Position numbers and translations under genes: made by a program
Shown here: positions 5,113-27,939 of the stretch, piece by piece
How positions within the stretch are numbered: the stretch's first letter is position 1
Layout: every line of letters starts with the position of its first letter
Virus record (IMG/VR): IMGVR_UViG_3300013297_000014
Location: 1 to 30,495 of that record
Source of the DNA: a virus
Reading direction: 5' to 3' (one strand)
DNA length: 30,495 nt
Notes under the pieces: generated by a model
Databases searched by the model: none
What the model was told of the DNA's origin: nothing
The model's input: the letters and a program-made list of their open reading frames with translations, nothing else

Positions 5113-6105
5113 ATGCGAATCTATGACATCCTGCGCACCGTTGACCCGAGCTTTCCGAGCGCAACCGCGTTCATCGCCGACCAGATCGCCATCAAGATCG
5201 ACGGTGAGGAGGCCCAGGACTTCACCAACTGGCCACCCTCGGCGTACGGCAATATCGCGCCGCCATATCCGGCCTTCTTTGTCGAGGCCCGCACGGTGTT
5301 GAAGACGGCCGGCATCGTGGAGCTGCTCGTACCGCCGTCTGTCCGGCTTCTTCCGGGCTATCAGGGCGCGCGGCTCGAAGGCGCCGGCGAGGAGATGACG
5401 GTTGATCGCGCGCTATATTTCGAGGATGTGACCGAGCAGCCGCGCATCAAGGCCCAGGAATACCTGTTCGGCGATCCACAGCCCGCTGCTACATGCTGGG
5501 TGCTGGCGCTGTTCGGCTTTATGCGCGTGGACAACGGCGATATCAGTCTGTTCCCTGGCCACGCGTATCTGCACATCGGCGCAGACGGCCGGTTGCTCGA
5601 CGACACGGCTGGCATTCATATGGTGGAGTATCCAGACGACCAGCTGATACCTGGCGCTGACTATAACCCGATGACGCAGCTGGCCAGCTTCGTCCCGTTC
5701 GGCCTGTTCGCGATCAAGGCATTGCACGATCGCTGCGAGGTCGAGCTGGTCACACCGAGCCGCCAGGTGCGGAGGCGCATGGAGCGGAAAGAGGGGATCA
5801 CACCGCAGCGCTATTACATTCTGAAGGTCAATACTCCCACGCCGCAGCGGCGCTATGCCAAGCCGCCCGAGATGAAGCCAGAGGCCGAGAAGCCAGGCGT
5901 GAGAAGGCATGATGTGCGTGGTCACTTCCACTTTTACACCAAGCAAAAGCCACTGTTTGGCCGCATCGCGGGTGCGGTCTGGATCCCGCCACATCAGCGC
6001 GGGAAGGAGGAAGTCGGGGCCATCAAGAAAGACTACCTGATCAGAGAGGCCGCACTGCCAGAGAGCAACCCTGAGTACGCGCCGACCGAGGACTCGCCGT
6101 TTTAA
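5113..6105 (+). CDS. Conserved phage-type hypothetical protein, 330 aa
   Basis: ATG 5113 begins a soluble 330-residue protein. The first two thirds are alpha/beta without a motif I can name. The C-terminal part (about residues 260-300) has VRRHDVRGHFHFY, then FGRIAGAVWIPPHQRG. This H-x-V-R-G-H ... W-x-x-x-H-x-R-G pattern is, from memory, shared by a broad set of uncharacterised actinophage and plasmid proteins, and the paired His could bind metal or nucleic acid. The gene sits 28 bases upstream of parA and may belong to the same operon. No enzymatic claim is justified. Confidence 0.65.
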   Translation: MRIYDILRTVDPSFPSATAFIADQIAIKIDGEEAQDFTNWPPSAYGNIAPPYPAFFVEARTVLKTAGIVELLVPPSVRLLPGYQGARLEGAGEEMTVDRALYFEDVTEQPRIKAQEYLFGDPQPAATCWVLALFGFMRVDNGDISLFPGHAYLHIGADGRLLDDTAGIHMVEYPDDQLIPGADYNPMTQLASFVPFGLFAIKALHDRCEVELVTPSRQVRRRMERKEGITPQRYYILKVNTPTPQRRYAKPPEMKPEAEKPGVRRHDVRGHFHFYTKQKPLFGRIAGAVWIPPHQRGKEEVGAIKKDYLIREAALPESNPEYAPTEDSPF

Positions 6106-6133: not shown

Positions 6134-6889
6134 ATGATCATCGCCATCACCATGCAGAAGGGCGGCGTCGGCAAGACCACGACCACGCTGGCGCTCGGGT
6201 CGGAGCTGGCCAGAAGCGGCGCGCGGGTGCTCCTGATCGACCTCGACCCGCAGGCCAGCTTGACCGAGGGCATCGGCGTCACGCCCGAGCAGCTCGACGG
6301 CACGATCTACGAAGCGATGCTCGACCCATCATGCGCCGAAGCGGTCACGATCACCTCCGAGTACGGCGTCGACCTGATTGGGGCCACGCTCAATCTCGCC
6401 GGCGCGGAGCTGTCATTCGCCGGGCGCTTCGGTCGCGAGCTGCTGCTACGGCAGGCGCTGGCCCCGCTGCGCAGCCACTACGACTACATTCTGATTGATT
6501 CCCCACCGGGACTGGGCATCTTCACCGTGAACGCGCTCGTGGCCGCGGACGCGCTGATCATTCCGCTCCAGGCGCACGTGTTCGCAATGGATCAGATGGC
6601 ACAGATGGAGTCGACCATCACGATGATCCGCCAGATGAACCCTAGTCTCAGCATCGGCGGGATTGTGGTCACGATGGTTGGTCGCACGAATATCAACGCC
6701 GCGATCGAGGCGGCCGCGCGCGCTCGGTATGGAGACCTGGTGTTCGACATCACCATCCCGCATTCGGTCAAGATTATCGAGGCGCCCGCGGCCGGGCAGC
6801 CGATCACCGTGTACGCGCCAGAGAGCAGCGGAGCCGCGGCGTACCGGGCCTTAGCTGAGGAAGTGAGGGAGCGATGGCCGATAAGCTAG
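6134..6889 (+). CDS. parA: ParA-family partition ATPase
   Basis: A deviant Walker A motif KGGVGKTTT lies at residues 9-17, with the signature first lysine of ParA/MinD proteins. It is followed by an A' motif (LLIDLDPQ, about 33-40) and a Walker B-like IDSPPG segment near residue 120. The length of 251 aa is typical of chromosomal-type or type Ib ParA without an N-terminal HTH. Such ATPases dimerise on ATP, bind DNA non-specifically and move a ParB-bound centromere. A good AGGAG ribosome site lies ten bases before the ATG. It overlaps the downstream ParB-domain gene by 16 bases. On a phage genome this argues for maintenance as a low-copy plasmid prophage. Confidence 0.92.
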   Translation: MIIAITMQKGGVGKTTTTLALGSELARSGARVLLIDLDPQASLTEGIGVTPEQLDGTIYEAMLDPSCAEAVTITSEYGVDLIGATLNLAGAELSFAGRFGRELLLRQALAPLRSHYDYILIDSPPGLGIFTVNALVAADALIIPLQAHVFAMDQMAQMESTITMIRQMNPSLSIGGIVVTMVGRTNINAAIEAAARARYGDLVFDITIPHSVKIIEAPAAGQPITVYAPESSGAAAYRALAEEVRERWPIS

Positions 6890-8343
6890 GCATGAAAACG
6901 CGGTATGCGACCGCCCCGGCGTATGAGGTTGGGCAGTATCTCCCGCTCGAAGCCATCCGCACGGACGGTGGCACGCAGGCGCGCGCGGGTCTGAATGAGG
7001 CGACTATCCAGGAATATGCTGAGGCCTGGCTTCAGCTGTCGCACGAGCAGAACGGCTTTTTGAAGATGCCGCTGATCGTCGTCTTCCACGATGGCGAGGC
7101 CTACTGGCTGGCTGATGGCTTCCATCGCGTCGAGGCCTACACGCGCTTTGTGAACGGCCCGTCGGCGAGTGCTAGCCCACGCGCGATCCGGGCCGAGATC
7201 CGAAGTGGCACGCGCCGTGATGCGGTGCTGTATGCCTGTGGTGCGAATAGCACGCACGGCCTCAAGCGCACAGACGCCGATAAGCGCCGGGCGTGCGCGC
7301 GGGTACTGAAAGACGATGAGTGGACACAATGGAGCGATAGTGAGATCGCCCGGCGGGTGAATGTTGATCATAAGACGGTCGCGAGCGTGCGGGCAGAGTT
7401 GGTGGCAACTGGGGAAATCCCCGGTTCGCCGATTCGCCAGAGCGCCGACGGCAAGGCGCGCGATGTGACCGGGATCCGCGAGTCGAATGCGCGGCGCAAG
7501 GTCGCGCCCGCCGATCAAGCGCCACTACCCGATATGCCCGCGCCGGCGCAGCCCACCGATCTGCCGCTCGAATACGCGATTATCCAGCGCCGCTACGTTG
7601 CGCAAGGGTATCAGCTGCTCTCAAATATGCAGGGTCAGCATCGGGCCTTCGTGACCCGGAAAGAGGGCATGACCGGGGTTGTCACGTTCGAATGGCAGGA
7701 TGTGCTGAGCAAGCTCGAACGACTGGAGGGGCAGGCCGCAGCCGCACCAATCCTCACAGTTCACAGTTCGGCATTGTGGGCAGTCGCCGATGCGTCGTAC
7801 TCGGCAGACCGACTATCAAACGGCAAGATGAAAAAGCCATTCGCCTATGATGGTCGACTCTGGATCGGCGTTGGCGGCCACTACGCAGGCGGACTGAGTG
7901 GAGCACGCGTCGAGGATTGTGTTTGTGTCGTCGCTGTCGGCACGGCCTATACGCCTGGCGAGCCAAACAAGCACTATCGCACGGGCAGCTACTGCGGTAA
8001 CAAGGCTCACTATCACGGCGTGGAGTATGAGCTGACTGGCCAGTGGCTGATCGTGCATAACGACGATGCCAGCCAGGCGCCGGATCCCGCGCACGTCGAG
8101 CGATTGGAAGAGCAGATCGAGTCGGGCGATCGGATCCCCGATGCGGGCATGCAGACGGCGGGCGAGATCAAGCCGGCGTATTGGTACGGCTCGACGTGCG
8201 AGCGATTCACCAACACCGCTGCGCTGGCAAAGTGGTGCGCGGTGCGGGCCGATCAGTTGACCGCAGATGCACGCATCACGATGGCAGAGGAAGCCAATCA
8301 GCTGATTGTCGAACTGGAGACCCTGATCGAAGCCCTGACCTAA
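6874..8343 (+). CDS. ParB-domain DNA-binding protein with unusual C-terminal half
   Basis: Residues about 20-125 form a ParB/Srx-type domain: GGTQAR (32-37), then a strand and the hallmark LADGFHRVEA (79-88), where classical ParB has a GERR-like motif. An HTH follows (WSDSEIARRVNVDHKTVASV, about 150-170). The N-terminal part resembles the 'ParB-like' regulators found next to ParA on plasmids and phages. The remaining 270 residues are unlike ParB: a Gly- and Tyr-rich segment with Cys residues (WIGVGGHYAGGLSG, then DCVC, then SYCGNKAHYHG), ending in an acidic helix. It probably binds a centromere site. A nuclease or other activity in the C-terminal half cannot be excluded. Confidence 0.8.
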   Translation: MADKLGMKTRYATAPAYEVGQYLPLEAIRTDGGTQARAGLNEATIQEYAEAWLQLSHEQNGFLKMPLIVVFHDGEAYWLADGFHRVEAYTRFVNGPSASASPRAIRAEIRSGTRRDAVLYACGANSTHGLKRTDADKRRACARVLKDDEWTQWSDSEIARRVNVDHKTVASVRAELVATGEIPGSPIRQSADGKARDVTGIRESNARRKVAPADQAPLPDMPAPAQPTDLPLEYAIIQRRYVAQGYQLLSNMQGQHRAFVTRKEGMTGVVTFEWQDVLSKLERLEGQAAAAPILTVHSSALWAVADASYSADRLSNGKMKKPFAYDGRLWIGVGGHYAGGLSGARVEDCVCVVAVGTAYTPGEPNKHYRTGSYCGNKAHYHGVEYELTGQWLIVHNDDASQAPDPAHVERLEEQIESGDRIPDAGMQTAGEIKPAYWYGSTCERFTNTAALAKWCAVRADQLTADARITMAEEANQLIVELETLIEALT

Positions 8344-8435: not shown

Positions 8436-8645
8436 ATGATGCAACTCACCCCCGCTGACCTCGAATTGATCAGGCTTCTGCAGGACGACTACACCAACCG
8501 CATGATCGCGCACCGACTCGGCGTCAGCCCGATTGCCGTCGCCGATGCGCTTGCCCGGCTCTACCGCACGCTCGACGCGACCGATCGACCGAGCGCTATC
8601 GCGGCCGCGCGGATGATCGCGGCCGAAAGCAAGGCGCGGCAATGA
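8436..8645 (+). CDS. Stand-alone LuxR/GerE-type HTH protein, 69 aa
   Basis: The whole protein is one LuxR C-terminal-type HTH: LTPADLELIRLL (residues 4-15), NRMIAHRLGVSP (about 22-33), then AVADALARLYRTLDA as recognition helix and dimer helix, with a final helix after the R-P-S-A motif. It lacks any sensor or receiver domain, as in Bacillus GerE. A GGAAGGG-type ribosome site lies a few bases upstream. It overlaps the translocase gene by ATGA, so it likely regulates the translocase module, and perhaps binds the inverted repeat at 8408. The small size argues for a dimeric DNA-binding repressor or activator. Confidence 0.78.
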   Translation: MMQLTPADLELIRLLQDDYTNRMIAHRLGVSPIAVADALARLYRTLDATDRPSAIAAARMIAAESKARQ

Positions 8646-10165
8646 CGCACGAATCCTCGCCGGCGCGCGCTCCATCGCCACTGTGGCGGGTTACGCTCGT
8701 AGTCGGCCTGATTGCCACGATCGGGCTACTCGCCGCGCTGTGGCCGTTCCTGCGTGCGCTGGGGGTTGCGCTGCAAGCCTACACCGGCGCAATTGCGCTG
8801 ATGCTGCTGCTGTTCGTCGCTGCGCTGCTGCTTGGCATCGTGCGAATCGTGTATGCGATCGGCTGGAAGATGGACGCCAGCGCACGTCAGGCGCGCGTCG
8901 TCAGGCTCCAGAACGATCTGCCGATCAGCGTCGACGATGTGCATGCCGCGTTTGAGCGCCACGCGACAAGCAGCCTCGATCAGCACTATAGAGCGCAGCT
9001 GGCCGAGGCCGAGCGGCCGTTCCCACTCGTGACGAACTTCCACCAGGCGACCACGCACGCGCCGGCGCTAACAGCTGCGCCGGCTGAAACGGTCGCAACG
9101 ATCGCGGCGATCCCGACGTTCGCGCAGCTGCTCGACAGCGGCCAGATCGGGCCGGGCCGGCCGCTCATCCTCGGCTACGACGCTGCGACCGGGCACGCCA
9201 TTACCGGCGCGTGGAAGGATCTGTACTCGTGCGGCGTCGGCGCGCTCCAGGGCGCGGGCAAGTCCTGGCTGCTGGCGTTTCTGCTGGGCCAGAGCGCGGC
9301 CGGCGGCGGGCGGCTGATCATCTGCGACCTGCATGCCGGCGACGACGAGAGCTTAGCCAACCGGATCGGCGCACTCGCGCCGGCCTTTATGTGCGATATC
9401 GCCTCGACTCCCAAAGAGATCGAAAGTGCGTTCGCCTTCGCCGATGACAAGCTGGAGAAGCGCAAGACCAATAGCGCGCGCTGGCCGATCGTGCTGGTGG
9501 CCGATGAGTGGACGAGTCTGCTGCGCACGTCGGCCGGCACGGCGCTGCCCGCGCACATTCAGAACATTGCCGAGCAGGGCCGCAAGTTCAACGTCAACGG
9601 GATCCTCGCGGCGCAGGCCTGGACGAAGGCGGCCAGCAGCGACGTGCGCAACCAGCTGACGAGTCATTACGTGATGCGCCAGCGACCCGACGAGGCGCGC
9701 TACCAGCTGGGCCTCAGAGCCGAGCAGCTGCCCACCGACATCCGCAGCCTGCCCGATGCGACCGGCTACCTGCTGAACGTGCAAGGTGAGCTGATCAAGA
9801 TCGTCGTGCCGCACATGACCGCTGTCGACATTGCGCGCTGCGGCGAGATGATCGACAGAGAGGCCGGCTCGCCGCAGAAGTTCGGGTTTATGGCACCAAC
9901 CCAGCGACTTCCAGGAAGTCCACCGGCGGAACTCAAAAGGAACTCAGACGGAACTCAAAAGGAACTCACAGCGAATGTGACGGCCACGGCAGCACCATCA
10001 GGTACGAGGGCGTCACCCGAAGCGGCGCGCGCAGCTGCGCTGTTCGAGGCGGGTGCGGACATCGCGGACATCATTCGCGCGTTGCGCGGCGAGTTGAGCG
10101 GCCGGGCACGCCAGCAGGCGAGTGTGGAAATACAGCAGCTTATCAGAGAAGGGCGACAACCATGA
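8642..10165 (+). CDS. Membrane-anchored FtsK/TraB-like DNA translocase, 507 aa
   Basis: Two transmembrane helices lie near residues 16-36 and 48-72, followed by a cytoplasmic ATPase. The P-loop is GALQGAGKSW with the catalytic Lys at residue 207. Walker B is IVLVADEW with Asp288 and Glu289, and a sensor-like stretch (GILAAQAW) follows. About 60 C-terminal residues (EAARAAALFEAGADIADII and on) look like a small helix-turn-helix. This is the architecture of FtsK/SpoIIIE and of Streptomyces TraB: a membrane anchor, a RecA-type motor and a DNA-reading tail. FtsK itself is far longer. Four 11-bp DNA repeats lie within this gene's 3' part. It is coupled to both neighbours by ATGA. Likely role: moving the element's DNA at segregation or between cells. 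Confidence 0.82.
   Translation: MTHESSPARAPSPLWRVTLVVGLIATIGLLAALWPFLRALGVALQAYTGAIALMLLLFVAALLLGIVRIVYAIGWKMDASARQARVVRLQNDLPISVDDVHAAFERHATSSLDQHYRAQLAEAERPFPLVTNFHQATTHAPALTAAPAETVATIAAIPTFAQLLDSGQIGPGRPLILGYDAATGHAITGAWKDLYSCGVGALQGAGKSWLLAFLLGQSAAGGGRLIICDLHAGDDESLANRIGALAPAFMCDIASTPKEIESAFAFADDKLEKRKTNSARWPIVLVADEWTSLLRTSAGTALPAHIQNIAEQGRKFNVNGILAAQAWTKAASSDVRNQLTSHYVMRQRPDEARYQLGLRAEQLPTDIRSLPDATGYLLNVQGELIKIVVPHMTAVDIARCGEMIDREAGSPQKFGFMAPTQRLPGSPPAELKRNSDGTQKELTANVTATAAPSGTRASPEAARAAALFEAGADIADIIRALRGELSGRARQQASVEIQQLIREGRQP
9928..9971 (+). repeat. Four 11-bp direct repeats inside the translocase gene
   Basis: The octamer GGAACTCA starts at 9928, 9939, 9950 and 9961, exactly 11 bases apart, with the three-base spacers aaa, gac, aaa and cag. 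Because 11 is not a multiple of three, the copies are read in three different frames and encode different residues (E-L-K, R-N-S, G-T-Q, E-L-T). The repeat is therefore a DNA-level feature rather than a protein repeat. One copy per helical turn suits binding by a multimer on one DNA face. Confidence 0.75.
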
Positions 10166-10854
10166 CCACGCACACCACGACCAGCTTGTACCTGACGTGG
10201 CGCGACCACGCGCGCACCTGGCTTGCCCAGCGTGACCCGATCGCACTTCTGAGCATACTGCTGATTGTGTCGATCGTCGGCCTGGCAGTCATTCGCCAGC
10301 TGGCGATCGTCATGGCGCCGATCGCCGCTGTGCCGACACCGAGCCCCCCGATCATCATGATCGCGACCCAGCCGGCGATGGTGCCGCCAACGGCCGCGCC
10401 ACGCCAGGTGGCTGCTCAGCTCCTTGAGGCACCTCCGCGCTATGTGGTGGCCTTCGCAGCCCCGGATGGCGCGGTGCTTGGGGCCATCCCCGAGCCGGCC
10501 GCGAGCGCCATTCTGGCGCGCTATGGCGACTCGTGGCTGATGACCAACTGGCAAGGTTCGAACGTGTGGATTCGAGCGGCCGACATCGGGCTGAACCTTG
10601 CCGACGTTGCGCCCGCCCTGGCCCCTGCCGTCTCTGCGAGCGCCCGCGCGCCGGTCTCCGCCGCGCCGGTAGCGCCTGAGCAGCCCTATCAGACCGACAA
10701 TGCGCCGCCGACGCCTGAGCCGCCCGCACAGCCGGGCGCAGCGACCGTCGTGGCACCCGCAGCGCAGCCGGCCTACCCGACGCTTGCGCCGATGGAAATG
10801 AACGAAGTGAATGCCGAGTGGGCCAGGCAACAGTATGCAGCCGAGCATCCCTAA
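10162..10854 (+). CDS. Membrane protein with SH3b-like domain and Pro-rich tail, 230 aa
   Basis: A basic N-terminus is followed by one transmembrane helix (about residues 27-53). A Pro-rich linker follows, then an SH3b-like domain at about 90-150 (VVAFAAPDGAVLGAIPEP ... SWLMTNW ... VWIRAADIGL). The last 70 residues are low-complexity Pro, Ala and Glu. Topology suggests an external domain that could contact peptidoglycan. It is coupled by ATGA to the translocase, so the two probably act together at the envelope. A lysis or receptor role is a less likely alternative because the gene is in the early + strand operon. Confidence 0.65.
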   Translation: MTTHTTTSLYLTWRDHARTWLAQRDPIALLSILLIVSIVGLAVIRQLAIVMAPIAAVPTPSPPIIMIATQPAMVPPTAAPRQVAAQLLEAPPRYVVAFAAPDGAVLGAIPEPAASAILARYGDSWLMTNWQGSNVWIRAADIGLNLADVAPALAPAVSASARAPVSAAPVAPEQPYQTDNAPPTPEPPAQPGAATVVAPAAQPAYPTLAPMEMNEVNAEWARQQYAAEHP

Positions 10855-11364: not shown

Positions 11365-13143
11365 TCACCCGCGCGCCGGCCGCGCCACGCCGGCAGCCAG
11401 CTGGGCCAGGAGCACGTCAAGCCGCGCGATCGGCGTCTCCGGCTCTAAGGTCAGCGTGTCGTCGTCGAAGCGGTACTCCGCGCGGGTCAGGCGAAACACG
11501 CGCACGCGGTCGATAGCGACGCCCAGGCTCGGGCTCAGATTGCGGATGACCATCGTGTCGCCCGCCTGAACATACCACAGCGGCCAGCGCGACCCGCCCG
11601 CGTCGAACACCTGCCTCACCACGACGCCCGCGCGCGGCCGCGGCTCGCGTCCATCGGCGAGTGCGGTCGCTTGCTGATAGGCCGCCTGCGCCGCGCTGGT
11701 GGTCTGCACGGCCAGCGCTTTCCTGCGGGTCAGCCCATAGCGCGCGATACTGCCACTGTCGGCGGTCGCCGCCGACCTGACGGCACGGTTATTCGCATCG
11801 CTATAGACCGCGTACACGCTGTTGGTCAGCTGGTCGAGCGTGCGCTGGATGTCCAGGTCGCTCACATCGATGTACCACGTCCGCTGCGCGTTCTGGGCGC
11901 GCATGTACAGGCGCTGGGCATCCTTGACCCCCCACTCCCACTGATTGCCGCTCGCGTCGCCGAGGCGAATCAGATAGTCCATGATGTCGCACGGCAGCAT
12001 GTCGGCGTAGCTCTCGTTCAGCAGATCGAGCGCGGGGCTGTCGGTGAGACTGAGCGAGCTTGAGAGCTGGCCGCTATTCAGCGCGCTCGTAACCGTGATC
12101 AGATCGTCGGCGATCTCGTCGGCGTAGATGACAAAGCCCTGCACGGTGTTCCCGATCAGCCAGGTGCCCACGCTCGGATCCATGTCGGTCACGAAATGGG
12201 TTGCGTCGGTCACGCTCACCACCGTACAGCCGCGATTCGCAGTCGCGCTCTGGGTGAACACCAGCCGCAGGCCCGGATACATGCGCGCGGTCGAGACGAC
12301 GGCGACGGTCATCCCGATAGACGAGGCCACGTTCGCGGTGATGGTCGTATTGACGCGGTTAGCGGTCGCGGTCACGACGCGCAGGTTGGTGATCTGGAGA
12401 TAGGCGCTGCCGGTCTCGCCGGCGAACACCGCGTCGGCGACGTTATAGAACATGCCAAACACCAGCCGATCGCACGCGGTGATCACAACATGCACCGCGC
12501 CGTTGCGCAGGCCGCCGCTGCTGGCAAGCGACCAGACAACGGCAGAGAACGCATAGGGATTGGTGGTGTAGGCGATCAGGCGTGTCACCCAGTTCAGCGG
12601 CGCGCTGGTTTGGAAGTCGAACGACACGCCGATGATCTGCCGACTTGAGAGGCTGGCGCGATCGAACGCCAGCCCGCCCTCCTTCACGCTGCCGGTGCTG
12701 CCGAGCGTCTCGCCCTTGCGCGGCGAGATCGACAGCCGGTTATTGGTGTCGAACTCGTAGCGCCCCTCACTAAAGCCCACATCGTCGGAACTCAGATAGG
12801 TGCGCCACTCGCTCACGCGCGTACTACTCCACAGCGCCGTATAGGGCGCATCCGACAGGCTGCGCGCGTAGCCCATCGCGGTCAACGTGACCCCATCGCC
12901 CGAGATCGCCACGTCCTCGATCCGCCCGTCGTAGACCGCGCCGCTGCTGGTGTCGGCGATTTGCACCCTGAGCCCGCCGATCGCGCTATACAGGCTGAAC
13001 GCTTCGGTCAGGCCCATCGGGATAAATCCCTTGCACTCCGCAAAGCCGCGATTGTTCGAGGCGAACGTGAGGCCGCGCACGCGGCCCGAGTAGTCGGCGA
13101 GCAGCGCGCCAGAGACGCGGATATACAGCGCGTACTGAATCAT
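11365..13143 (-). CDS. Distal tail/baseplate-type protein, 592 aa
   Basis: I place the start at ATG 13143, in a four-base ATGA overlap with the upstream tail gene, rather than 27 codons further up. The N-terminal 120 residues resemble siphovirus tail hub proteins: a strand-rich beginning (YALYIRVSGALL), then VYDGRIEDVAISGDGVTLTAMGY, a stretch I associate with minor tail proteins. The middle is beta-rich and Thr/Ser/Ala-rich, and the C-terminal third is more helical. It is downstream of the tape measure and distal tail genes, where hub and receptor-binding proteins are encoded. No peptidase or depolymerase motif is clear. Confidence 0.72.
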   Translation of the reverse strand: MIQYALYIRVSGALLADYSGRVRGLTFASNNRGFAECKGFIPMGLTEAFSLYSAIGGLRVQIADTSSGAVYDGRIEDVAISGDGVTLTAMGYARSLSDAPYTALWSSTRVSEWRTYLSSDDVGFSEGRYEFDTNNRLSISPRKGETLGSTGSVKEGGLAFDRASLSSRQIIGVSFDFQTSAPLNWVTRLIAYTTNPYAFSAVVWSLASSGGLRNGAVHVVITACDRLVFGMFYNVADAVFAGETGSAYLQITNLRVVTATANRVNTTITANVASSIGMTVAVVSTARMYPGLRLVFTQSATANRGCTVVSVTDATHFVTDMDPSVGTWLIGNTVQGFVIYADEIADDLITVTSALNSGQLSSSLSLTDSPALDLLNESYADMLPCDIMDYLIRLGDASGNQWEWGVKDAQRLYMRAQNAQRTWYIDVSDLDIQRTLDQLTNSVYAVYSDANNRAVRSAATADSGSIARYGLTRRKALAVQTTSAAQAAYQQATALADGREPRPRAGVVVRQVFDAGGSRWPLWYVQAGDTMVIRNLSPSLGVAIDRVRVFRLTRAEYRFDDDTLTLEPETPIARLDVLLAQLAAGVARPARG

Positions 13144-14547: not shown

Positions 14548-16302
14548 CTAGTTTCCTGTCCGCATACGACTGAGCGACTTATTGCCGCTACTCGTCAGCG
14601 CCTCTTCGATCGTGATTTTGAATAACTTCTTGAACTCGCCGGCGTCGAGCACGATATGCACGGTCTGCCCGCCACCGCCACTCGCACTGCTGGAAGGAGC
14701 CGCGACCGTACCGCGCGCGCCCCCGATCAGCGGCGCGCCGACGGCGAGCGGATCGGCGTCACGAATGCCGGCCTGAATCTGGGTCACGATGCCCGCGCCG
14801 GCGCGCGACAGGCCGGCCAGTGGGCTGCTCGCGTCCTTCGGCTCCGAAAAGGGCAGCTTGTCTTTCAGCTCCTGCAGTTTGTCATTGAACCAGCTGACCA
14901 GCTTATTCCACTCGCCTTCGATGCCGTCTTTGATTGATTGCACGATCGCCGCGCCGACGTTCGCGAGCTGGCCTGGTAGCGCCTGCCACGCATCGTTGAT
15001 CCACTGGATCGCGCCACCAAACACGGTCTTGAGGATCTCCAGATCGGCCGTGAGGATGGCGATCATACCCTCAACGATCGTGGCACACATCGTCTTAATC
15101 GCTTCCCACGCGCCGCTCCAGTCGCCCTTGATCACATCCATCACGACCGTGATCACGCCCTTGATCACCGCCAGCGCGACCGTGATGATCGTCTTGATAA
15201 TCGTCCAGGCCGCCGACAGCACCGCCCCAATCTCCGCACTATGCGCCTGCAAGAAGCCGGCGATCTCCTTGAAGGCCGGAATAACCACGTCGGTGACAAG
15301 TTGCACGTTCAGCGCGATAATATCCGCGACCAGCCCCCACATCGCGCCCAGGTCAGCCAGGATGCCGCTGAACTCGTTCGACTGCTCGCCAGCCCCGCTG
15401 AACAGTTGCGCGAGATAGTCGAACACGGGCGCGACAGATGCGATCGCCGCCTTGACCGCATCGATCGCGATCGGAATGCCCGTTTCCAGGGCGGGCGCGA
15501 CGTAATCGTTCAGCACGCCGGCCAGCATATTCAGCACTGGGAGGAGCGCCGCGCCAACCGACTCGCCGGCCTCACCGATCCGGGCCTTGAACTGCACCAT
15601 CCCGCCGGCCGACTCCGCGGCTGACTGCGCGCTCCCGGCGAACGTCCCGTTCAGCTGTTCCATCAAGTACGCCTGCGCGCCGGCGGTGTCACCCGCCGCC
15701 ACCATCGTCTTGATCATCTCCTTCTGCTGGTCCGTGAGGACGATCCCCATCTTGGCCAGCTTGGCCGCCGCGTCCTCGGGCTTCTGGAGCGCGCGGCCCA
15801 AGGTGTCGGCAGCCGCCGCCGGGTCAGCGCCCAGCGTTTGGGCCATATCGAGCGACAGCTTCGTGACATCCGTAATCGGGACTTTCAGCTCCTTAAATTT
15901 GAGGATGACATTCTCTGCGCCCTGGATCTGATCGTCGCCAAACAGCGACTTGCCGGCCGCGTCACTGAGACTCGACGCCAGATCGGCGACCTGCTGCGCG
16001 GAGATCTCGCCACTTCTGCCGGTGTTTTTGATGATATTTTCGGTCGCGGCGAGGAGCTCGCGCGACTTCTGCGCGTCGGCGATGCCGTCGGACACGAAAC
16101 TCTTCAGCTGGCCAGCGATGTTGCCGATGACATTCGCGGCGAGGAAGCCGCCGGCGACCTGGGCCATGCCAGAAAAGAAGCCGCTCCCCTTCGGTGCGGC
16201 TTCGTCGGCGGCAGTCCCCACGTCGCGCACATCGTCGGCGACCTGGTGGGCGGCGGCGGAGACCTGGTCGTCGCCCTTGAAGATGACAGCGAGTTGGGCC
16301 AA
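14548..16302 (-). CDS. Tail tape measure protein, 584 aa
   Basis: A TTG start at 16302 directly follows the stop of the frameshifted chaperone ORF (TAATTG), with a GAGG ribosome site about 10 bases upstream. The N-terminus (LAVIFKGDDQVSAAAHQVADDV) is the usual tape-measure beginning. Then come long helices, hydrophobic membrane-active segments near residues 340-420 (ALAVIKGVITVVMDVIKG) and a Gly/Ser tail. Using the known 1.5 angstrom per residue relation, 584 residues predict a tail of roughly 85-90 nm, short for a siphovirus. It follows the chaperone pair, as in lambda. Confidence 0.92.
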   Translation of the reverse strand: MAQLAVIFKGDDQVSAAAHQVADDVRDVGTAADEAAPKGSGFFSGMAQVAGGFLAANVIGNIAGQLKSFVSDGIADAQKSRELLAATENIIKNTGRSGEISAQQVADLASSLSDAAGKSLFGDDQIQGAENVILKFKELKVPITDVTKLSLDMAQTLGADPAAAADTLGRALQKPEDAAAKLAKMGIVLTDQQKEMIKTMVAAGDTAGAQAYLMEQLNGTFAGSAQSAAESAGGMVQFKARIGEAGESVGAALLPVLNMLAGVLNDYVAPALETGIPIAIDAVKAAIASVAPVFDYLAQLFSGAGEQSNEFSGILADLGAMWGLVADIIALNVQLVTDVVIPAFKEIAGFLQAHSAEIGAVLSAAWTIIKTIITVALAVIKGVITVVMDVIKGDWSGAWEAIKTMCATIVEGMIAILTADLEILKTVFGGAIQWINDAWQALPGQLANVGAAIVQSIKDGIEGEWNKLVSWFNDKLQELKDKLPFSEPKDASSPLAGLSRAGAGIVTQIQAGIRDADPLAVGAPLIGGARGTVAAPSSSASGGGGQTVHIVLDAGEFKKLFKITIEEALTSSGNKSLSRMRTGN

Positions 16303-26218: not shown

Positions 26219-27650
26219 TGAGTGCATCCTTTGCCTTTGCCTCGTTGTAGCGCCGCACCCATTCGTCGCCGCTGACCGCGCCGATCATCAGCTCGGTCAA
26301 CGCCCAGACCAGCGCGTCCAGCCGGTTCGGCGATGCCATGCCGACCAGCCAGGAGCATAGTTCATCTTCCAGCTTTGTGAAGGTGCCGACGTGATGCACC
26401 TTGCCCAGTTCGTAGAGCGTGGAGACCGGCTCGGCGCGCGTGAACTTGCCCCGGCTGGCGTGAATGCGCTTGACCGTCGGCGCATTCGGGATCGTGCTGA
26501 TGGTCACCTCGACCATTTCGCCGCCGTTGTTATCCTCCGCGACCAGCAGATCAGCGTCAAACTTGTGATAGGACGTGACGCCGGCCGATGCCCAGACCCG
26601 CGGGCTGCCCTGCACACTCGCATCGTCGAGGATAAAGCCGTGCAGCTCAGGTGCGCCGCCCGTCGCCACCTTACAGTCGCACATCCCGACGCCTCCTGTG
26701 ATCACGCCGGCCTCATCGCCGCCCGAGGTAGCCGATGGATCGAGCGCCACCACGACGCGCGAGAGCGCCGGCGCTTTGGTCACGCGCTTCGCTTCGATCC
26801 ACACGCGCCGCCACAGCGCGCCCGGCACGTCCTCGATATCCTCGGCTAAGATCTCCTGCCGGTACGCGAGCGCGCCCATGTCGCCAGTAATCTCGGCTAA
26901 TGCCGCCGCCGAAATATGCGGATTGTCGTGACTGCTGAAGTGAAATGTTTCCCAGCGCCCGGTGGTATCGCTTTGCGCGCGCGTGTACATTTTGGCCGCG
27001 TGGTACGGGTCGGTCGCGCGGCTATGCTGAATCGTCTTCATACTGGGCGGCGTATAGACAAACACCGCATCCCCATCGTGGTCGAGCAGCATCGGCGCAC
27101 CCACCACTCCCCATGTCCCCTCCTGCATCATTTGGAACTCATCTAGGATCAGGATGTCGGCATAGTCGCCGCGCAGCGTATCGGCGTCCCATGCCGTTTT
27201 GGCGCGGATGCGCTGCTCGGTGCCCGGCAGCTCGATGATATGCCGCGTCTCGTTTTTGTACAGGATTCCCGCGTCGATCGGGGTGCGCAGCGCGCGCTTG
27301 CACTCCTCCCAGAAGCGATCGATCTGGTCGTTGGTCGGCGTGCCGTACAGCACGCGCCGCCCGGCCAGGAACGCCCGCACCGCCAAAATCGCCACGCCGA
27401 CCGTTTTGCCGCCGCGCCGGCCGGCGCGGATGATCTTGCGCTTGGCGGTCGACTCGATGAACGCCTGCTGCTGCGGATGATCGTCTGGGTTGCGCAGTTC
27501 AACCGTCGCATGCCAGTCACTCGCCGGCGTCGACGCTGCTGGCGCGGGCCAGTCGATCGAGGATACCGATGGCAGATCGATCGATGACTTCAAATAGTTC
27601 TGCCATGTCGGCGGCGCTCTGTTTGTCGAACCAGGTCGGCGTTGTAGCAT
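26211..27650 (-). CDS. terL: Terminase large subunit (TerL)
   Basis: Walker A is RAGRRGGKT, Walker B LILDEF with the catalytic Glu next to Asp, and the nuclease motifs are ALDPSATSGGDEAG, VAEDNNGG and NRLDALVWALTEL (counted from the TTG at 27659: 78-86, 168-175, 305-318, 373-380, 445-456). ATG 27650 is the first ATG, but this stretch overlaps terS by about 130 bases and is not TerL-like. The real start may be a TTG at 27593. The enzyme drives ATP-dependent DNA packaging and cuts the concatemer. Confidence 0.9.
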   Translation of the reverse strand: MLQRRPGSTNRAPPTWQNYLKSSIDLPSVSSIDWPAPAASTPASDWHATVELRNPDDHPQQQAFIESTAKRKIIRAGRRGGKTVGVAILAVRAFLAGRRVLYGTPTNDQIDRFWEECKRALRTPIDAGILYKNETRHIIELPGTEQRIRAKTAWDADTLRGDYADILILDEFQMMQEGTWGVVGAPMLLDHDGDAVFVYTPPSMKTIQHSRATDPYHAAKMYTRAQSDTTGRWETFHFSSHDNPHISAAALAEITGDMGALAYRQEILAEDIEDVPGALWRRVWIEAKRVTKAPALSRVVVALDPSATSGGDEAGVITGGVGMCDCKVATGGAPELHGFILDDASVQGSPRVWASAGVTSYHKFDADLLVAEDNNGGEMVEVTISTIPNAPTVKRIHASRGKFTRAEPVSTLYELGKVHHVGTFTKLEDELCSWLVGMASPNRLDALVWALTELMIGAVSGDEWVRRYNEAKAKDALNA

Positions 27651-27939
27651 ATTCCGCAATTCGCTGCGTGGCGATCAGCTTCGCGCGCAGGTTTTCCATA
27701 ATCAGCTCACCCAGCGCGAGCTGCTGCGCTTCGAGTGCCGGCCGCTTCAGCACCGTTACACCAGCTGTAACACCAGCTGTAACACCAGTCGTGACATCTG
27801 GCGTTACAAGCCGGGCCTTCCACTGGCGCACCGTGCCGCTCGGGAGACCATAGCGCGCCGCGACGATCGCCGGCTGATCACCGTCCAGCAGGTCGGCCAG
27901 CGCGGCCGCTTTGCGCTCATGATCGATCGGACTGGGCAT
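27517..27939 (-). CDS. terS: Terminase small subunit (TerS), 140 aa
   Basis: ATG 27939 starts a protein whose N-terminal 40 residues form a helix-turn-helix (ALADLLDGDQPAIVAARYG, then LPSGTVRQWKARL), the DNA-reading part of TerS. It is immediately upstream of terL. In mid-protein a four-residue A-G-V-T repeat follows from 12-bp DNA repeats (27758-27805). The C-terminal helices would oligomerise and contact TerL. Confidence 0.8.
   Translation of the reverse strand: MPSPIDHERKAAALADLLDGDQPAIVAARYGLPSGTVRQWKARLVTPDVTTGVTAGVTAGVTVLKRPALEAQQLALGELIMENLRAKLIATQRIAEYATTPTWFDKQSAADMAELFEVIDRSAIGILDRLARASSVDAGE
27758..27805 (-). repeat. Four 12-bp repeats inside terS, possible pac region
   Basis: On the + strand, ACACCAGCTGTA occurs twice in perfect form, followed by two degenerate copies (ACACCAGTCGTG, ACATCTGGCGTT). 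The flanking GTTACA...TGTAAC also makes a short inverted repeat. The unit is in frame and encodes A-G-V-T, so protein-level explanation is possible. In P22 and SPP1 the pac site lies inside the terS gene, which gives a second explanation. Confidence 0.6.

Follow-up and report, generated by a model that had tools for sequence, protein, structure and literature searches.

A phased octamer array within a translocase gene

The locus described here raises two linked questions: why does a viral gene for an FtsK-type DNA translocase carry a tandem array of one octamer inside its own coding sequence, and which protein reads it? The window, by which we mean the whole stretch of DNA analysed, is the entire IMG/VR record of 30,495 bp. 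On its plus strand, the octamer GGAACTCA is present at 9928-9935, 9939-9946, 9950-9957 and 9961-9968 (9928..9968 overall), with a step of exactly 11 bp and the spacers AAA, GAC and AAA between copies. Counted from the start of the ORF at 8642, the successive copies are in frames 2, 1, 0 and 2, so that all three frames are used. Positions and frame count thus bear out the first-pass annotation, which had described four copies at exact 11-base intervals, read in all three frames. Counted over the complete record, the octamer occurs six times, with the two copies outside the array at 12787 and 27134, and none of 100 dinucleotide shuffles reaches six (shuffle mean 0.49). We propose that the array is a recognition or loading site of the translocase, a proposal for which there are no binding data.

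A clear inverted copy, such as is present in the related contig L005 and in others, is absent from the window array. No Rfam match was found. An octamer-pair pattern occurs in 24 stretches of viral contigs, including two known relatives (L013, L025); the remaining stretches were set aside because a 16-base pattern is expected many times by chance in that collection. Other repeats lie elsewhere in the window. A perfect 12-bp repeat, ACACCAGCTGTA, is present in 2.6 copies at 27758-27788, within an ORF (27517-27939) beside the terminase gene, and gives the protein repeat GVTA. A 33-bp tandem repeat of 1.9 copies lies at 15123-15186, within a long ORF (14548-16302).

Predicted structure of the translocase

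The array lies in a plus-strand gene (8642..10165) whose 507-aa product we class as an FtsK-type, putatively membrane-bound DNA translocase from its Foldseek matches and from Walker-type motifs that are conserved among homologues. Its best Foldseek matches are dsDNA-bound FtsK motors (6t8o, 6t8b and 2iut, E about 1e-12), followed by EccC, TcpA and HerA. Sequence profiles barely detect this protein. No Pfam family, PF01580 (FtsK_SpoIIIE) included, matches the window protein at E<=0.001. In the five members of set A2, PF01580 gives no match even at E<=1, a threshold at which only marginal HerA/AAA matches are found. Matches in NCBIfam, to EccC and HerA, are weak. It is the predicted structure that settles the class of the translocase as an FtsK-type motor. 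The annotation's FtsK/TraB-like gene is thus upheld as an FtsK motor by fold, but it stands outside the Pfam FtsK_SpoIIIE family.

In the AlphaFold2 model, the motor domain spans residues about 160-405 (9119..9856, plus strand), with high pLDDT and with support from the fold search. Hydrophobic N-terminal helices at 14-46 and 50-91 are long in the model, and membrane anchoring is an inference. A linker at residues 415-455 (9884..10006, plus strand) is predicted to be disordered (pLDDT < 50), and the array encodes residues 429-443 within it. The C-terminal tail is modelled as a three-helix HTH (helices 459-469, 474-482 and 488-505; 10016..10156, plus strand), and its residues 478-503 covary with the repeat sequence, as described below. 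When the C-terminal domain is modelled alone, the same three helices are predicted with a mean pLDDT of 85 and no wing strands. A PDB fold search with this domain gave no significant match; its weak matches include several to HTH proteins, among them the NarL/RcsB/TraR and Tc3 kinds. The HTH-like tail noted in the annotation is retained as a modelled three-helix HTH, with the correction that no wing is predicted.

PADLOC matches were weak and fell on motor domains (mad8, HerA). The array and the element context speak against a defence role, which was rejected.

The array in related viral contigs

Four viral contigs (L004, L005, L006 and L007) carry the translocase gene. Capsid, portal and terminase relatives identify the viral contigs as phages. 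In L005 and L006 the four octamers recur, accompanied by TGAGTTCC, an inverted copy. Between the window and L005, a single base differs in the repeat region, and nucleotide identity in the flanking codons is 69% before and 55% after it; this comparison shows that the repeat block was kept at the DNA level although its flanks diverged. At the same place, L004 has a different 11-bp repeat, CGGCAACGGGA, in three copies and a part, and L007 has GTAGCCGAGCA/GAAGCCGGAAA/GTAGCCGAAAA/GTAGCCGAGCA. The 11-bp phasing that the annotation had raised as a possible feature of homologous translocases is found, then, with differing sequences: the period and place of the array are retained among relatives, and its sequence is not. 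One of the viral contigs, the related phage G002 (L035 and L036), has a tyrosine integrase and 127-bp identical ends, which indicate a closed assembly of about 36.9 kb. It also has a predicted tRNA-Asp (L036:12376-12455), whose anticodon, atc, is unusual.

The gene downstream of the translocase (10162..10854, plus strand) encodes a protein with a hydrophobic N-terminal segment and, possibly, an SH3-like region; among its homologues, SH3_3 matches are sub-threshold only. In each of the four related viral loci, a homologue adjoins the translocase, at 37-43% identity. Genes of this type, with the SH3-like part in the middle, were observed 3' of the translocase at L004:8398-9180, L005:9488-10225, L007:2016-2741, L108:4211-4906, L112:4500-4886 and L085:330-1199, that is, in viral and several genomic loci, with L085 beside a homologue that has another C-terminal domain. 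The product is possibly a conserved partner of the translocase.

Since a bound array in the 3' end of one gene could affect the next, the array may be imagined as an autoregulatory operator through which the tail controls the translocase or the gene at 10162. We consider this very unlikely, given that the array lies well within the coding sequence, some 200 bp short of the stop codon, and not at a promoter, but there is no direct test of it.

Phased repeats across a wider family

Phage and plasmid collections contained no relatives of the translocase, and a first scan of genome contigs with set A2 returned none either. A 69% identical major capsid in an Anaerolinea MAG (L042) pointed to Chloroflexota. 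Homologues were drawn from viral contigs and from a search of 400 Chloroflexota genomes and then of one class of 158 genomes; a further search by class brought back genomes already covered. The C-terminal domain is present in 18 loci, the window included; the 17 further genes are in viral contigs and Chloroflexota genomes.

To quantify phasing, we counted 5-mer self-matches in 17 non-redundant linkers of 264 bp and compared them with synonymous shuffles that preserve the protein. Summed over the 17 linkers, self-matches at lag 11 number 121, against a shuffle mean of 15.9 and a maximum of 35 (z 19). Lags 12 (95 versus a mean of 31 and a maximum of 57) and 22 (82 versus 14 and 32) are also in excess. 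Neither the motor parts of the same 17 genes (4 versus a mean of 6.6) nor 13 homologues with other C-terminal domains (7 versus 4.8) have an excess at lag 11. These counts show that the phased array recurs across the family, while single-locus significance is lacking in several members (L062, L071, L046 and L049).

In most loci the array is roughly 190-260 bp upstream of the stop codon, and many have an inverted copy 16-20 bp past the start of the last direct repeat. In an exact-6-mer test, an inverted copy within 30 bp was found in 5 of 17 loci (null mean 0.97, maximum 4). As this result is only moderately significant, we treat the inverted copies as a supporting detail. L046 has a 12-bp repeat that is repeated in the protein too.

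Covariation of motif and recognition helix

Most motifs can be aligned as xGxAxxxx. They are GGAACTCA in the window and L005; GGAAGTCA in L048; GGAATGAC in L068; GGAAGGGG in L046, L047 and L066; GGAAGTGG in L067 and L071; CGAAGCGG in L062; xGTAGCCG in L007 and L049; GG[AT]AGCC in L061 and L063; GGGACGGC in L004; TGAAAACA in L053; and GTCAGCCA in L050, which departs from xGxAxxxx at the second position. Across 17 loci, motif distance correlates with distance in the recognition part of the tail (residues 478-503; Mantel r=0.45, p=1e-4) and correlates neither with the motor (r=-0.08) nor with helices 1-2 (residues 457-477; r=0.08). The motifs in this test were aligned by eye. In a blind check, in which words were chosen by a program and the protein was not seen, the recognition part gave r=0.354 (p=0.0003), the motor r=-0.09 and helices 1-2 r=0.11. 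The sample for these comparisons is 16-17 loci.

The pairing is visible in individual cases. Similar recognition helices on distant motors share a motif: GTAGCCG in L007 and L049, GG[AT]AGCC in L061 and L063, and GGAAGTGG in L067 and L071. The same comparison pairs GGAACTCA in the window and L005 with GGAAGTCA in L048. Hitch-hiking of adjacent DNA does not explain the correlation, because the DNA that codes for helices 1-2 is closer to the array than that for the recognition helix. Computationally, the covariation shows a correspondence between the array sequence and the recognition helix of the translocase that the same gene encodes.

These data bear on whether the array has any function. The linker is disordered and variable, and the L046 repeat is seen in its protein as well as its DNA, as would be expected of a tandem repeat generated by slippage in a freely evolving linker. 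That such a repeat is functionless is scarcely credible in view of the 11-bp period kept with differing sequences, the inverted copies, the conservation in L005, the helix covariation and the absence of phasing in 13 controls.

Neighbouring proteins as candidate readers

In the window, genes for ParA (6134-6889) and a ParB-like protein (6874-8343) lie upstream of the translocase, and a LuxR-type HTH (8436-8645) is encoded just upstream of it. With such neighbours, the array could be a partition site (parS-like) or an operator of the ParB-like or LuxR-type protein that has come to lie in the translocase gene by chance. In L005 and L006, we detected no homologue of the window ParA, ParB-like or LuxR-type proteins, despite the same octamer array; the small HTH gene that precedes the translocase there is of resolvase type, another family. 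L004 keeps ParA (89%) and the LuxR-type protein (75%) yet has a different repeat, GGCAACGGGAC. The repeat does not follow these three proteins, because array and proteins dissociate in L004 and in L005/L006. Binding by the ParB-like or LuxR-type protein was rejected on this ground. A ParABS centromere is expected to travel with its ParB gene, and in L004 and L005/L006 this is not the case. We regard a partition site or neighbour's operator as extremely unlikely. The ParA and ParB-like genes (6134-8343) are present in L004, where the ParB-like gene is found in part only, and undetected in L005/L006, which suggests an exchangeable partition module beside the translocase.

The first-pass annotation had inferred that the translocase reads the repeats in its own gene through its HTH-like tail. 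The phased repeats in homologues, the recognition-helix covariation and the dissociation from the ParB-like and LuxR-type proteins support this inference, without binding data. Recognition of the array by the translocase's own tail is well supported computationally and, in our judgement, very probable; physical binding is inferred.

Elements that carry the translocase

Several genomic homologues are found in small integrated elements. In L102 (G293), a tRNA-Pro gene is at 6733-6807 and 81-bp direct repeats are at 6760 and 16206; the element contains a tyrosine integrase, the translocase, a D5_N primase-helicase and a methylase/Mrr-like gene. We read L102:6760-16286 as a 9.4-kb element integrated at tRNA-Pro, with the methylase/Mrr-like gene as possible cargo. 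In L103 (G358), at a tRNA-Gly gene, 47-bp repeats at 5227 and 14650 flank an integrase, the translocase and a D5_N protein, again a 9.4-kb element. In L104 (G300), 57-bp repeats at 2972 and 9338 surround a DUF3987 protein, the translocase and an integrase; no tRNA was found. A serine recombinase adjoins the translocase in L109, and L110 has a D5_N protein. Relaxase, T4SS and capsid families are absent among the neighbour proteins that were scanned, which do not comprise all ORFs.

Exact motif copies are restricted to the array or concentrated in it in most elements examined. All copies are in the array in G003, the L102 element and the L107 contig, and a smaller share of them in other elements; the L007 record (G004) has more scattered copies. 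This distribution bears on the main rival use of the array, in which the translocase reads it for segregation or resolution at cell division, in the manner of KOPS or SRS, and not for transfer. Such a use would fit a motor that is closest to FtsK and carriers some of which are phages with ParA/ParB. However, FtsK-type guidance motifs are spread along the replicon, whereas in most elements checked these form a single cluster, and it is hardly evident why a small integrated element with an integrase should need a motor for segregation. Segregation is for these reasons unlikely, though it deserves more weight than the other rivals.

Comparison with known systems

In Streptomyces TraB, helix alpha3 of a C-terminal winged HTH reads 8-bp repeats, and the clt of pWTY27 takes in the final 16 bp of traA (PMC3583192). 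The system described here resembles TraB/TRS/clt of pSVH1 and TraA/clt of pWTY27 in having a single FtsK-type translocase, inferred to be membrane-anchored, with a predicted C-terminal HTH, which in TraB and TraA reads repeated 7-8-bp motifs by helix 3 (PMC3583192, PMC4170104). A clt-like site should consist of several short direct repeats close to the translocase gene's 3' end, if not at it, and this is the arrangement found. Inverted copies occur in both systems, here in many loci, and clt itself lies at the 3' end of the tra gene or overlaps it. Unlike TraB and TraA, the Chloroflexota system belongs to another phylum, has no PF01580 match and has an HTH modelled without a wing; unlike clt, its array, of 11-12-bp period, does not extend beyond the coding sequence and precedes the part that encodes the HTH, and phages also carry it.

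Actinomycete integrative and conjugative elements (AICEs) combine an integrase, Rep and an FtsK-type Tra, and have been reported as confined to Actinomycetales (PMC3218068). L102 and L103 are like them: small elements at tRNA genes with an integrase, a replication protein and one FtsK-type translocase. The AICE layout, with att repeats around an integrase, a replication gene and a translocase, is found in the genomic homologues; the window phage is outside the scope of this comparison. Unlike in AICEs, the replication proteins are of D5_N/DUF5906 or DUF3987 type, not RepSA, RepAM or Prim-Pol, and the host is Chloroflexota. Despite the similar mode of working, we do not place the system within TraB or the AICEs, because PF01580 fails, the Rep types differ and no wing is predicted.

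FtsK-gamma/KOPS and SpoIIIE/SRS also share features with it, namely an FtsK motor fold, a small C-terminal DNA-reading domain and short oriented motifs. They differ in that the motifs here are clustered in one array and not replicon-wide, and in the HTH. TcpA of pCW3, which is among the fold matches, and Thermus TdtA (PMC5365140) are likewise FtsK/HerA-class motors used in DNA transfer; TcpA differs in acting with a T4SS, and TdtA in having no recognised DNA-binding domain.

A proposed mechanism and its implications

Our preferred reading, to which we assign a probability of roughly 0.7, is that the array is a loading site of the clt/TRS kind, which the tail of the translocase itself reads, most likely for TraB/clt-like transfer. 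The disordered linker would tolerate the array in its coding DNA, and the C-terminal three-helix HTH would bind the repeats. With one repeat per 11-bp helical turn, successive subunits could share the same face of the DNA and a common orientation. A membrane-anchored hexamer may thereby assemble on the element's own dsDNA with its pumping direction set; this loading is inferred, not measured. The most likely use would be TraB/clt-like transfer of the integrated element or prophage from cell to cell, with segregation as the alternative. We think cell-to-cell transfer of the element probable, with less assurance than we attach to recognition by the tail, and it too is an inference. The annotation had envisaged a phage-borne TraB-type system for transfer or segregation. 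The company of integrases or recombinases and of D5 or DUF3987 proteins in integrated elements, an AICE-like neighbourhood that is directly observed, favours this view, with transfer not shown; the restriction to phages does not hold.

A full-text literature search, which did not cover subscription literature, turned up no account of elements of this kind from Chloroflexota. We lean, with some reserve, towards an undescribed class of minimal DNA-transfer cassettes in integrated elements and temperate phages of Chloroflexota. In such a cassette, an FtsK-type pump, its reader and its address would lie in one gene, specificity would change as a linked block, and phages would carry a conjugation-like module. 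To our knowledge, little is known of conjugation in Chloroflexota. The family offers a natural table of 17 pairs of recognition helix and DNA motif with which the reading code of translocases can be tested. If our reading is correct, actinomycetes are not alone in having single-protein dsDNA transfer of the Streptomyces type, and a related solution exists in Chloroflexota and their phages. The physical linkage of reader and address would then help to explain how specificity can change without loss of the partner.
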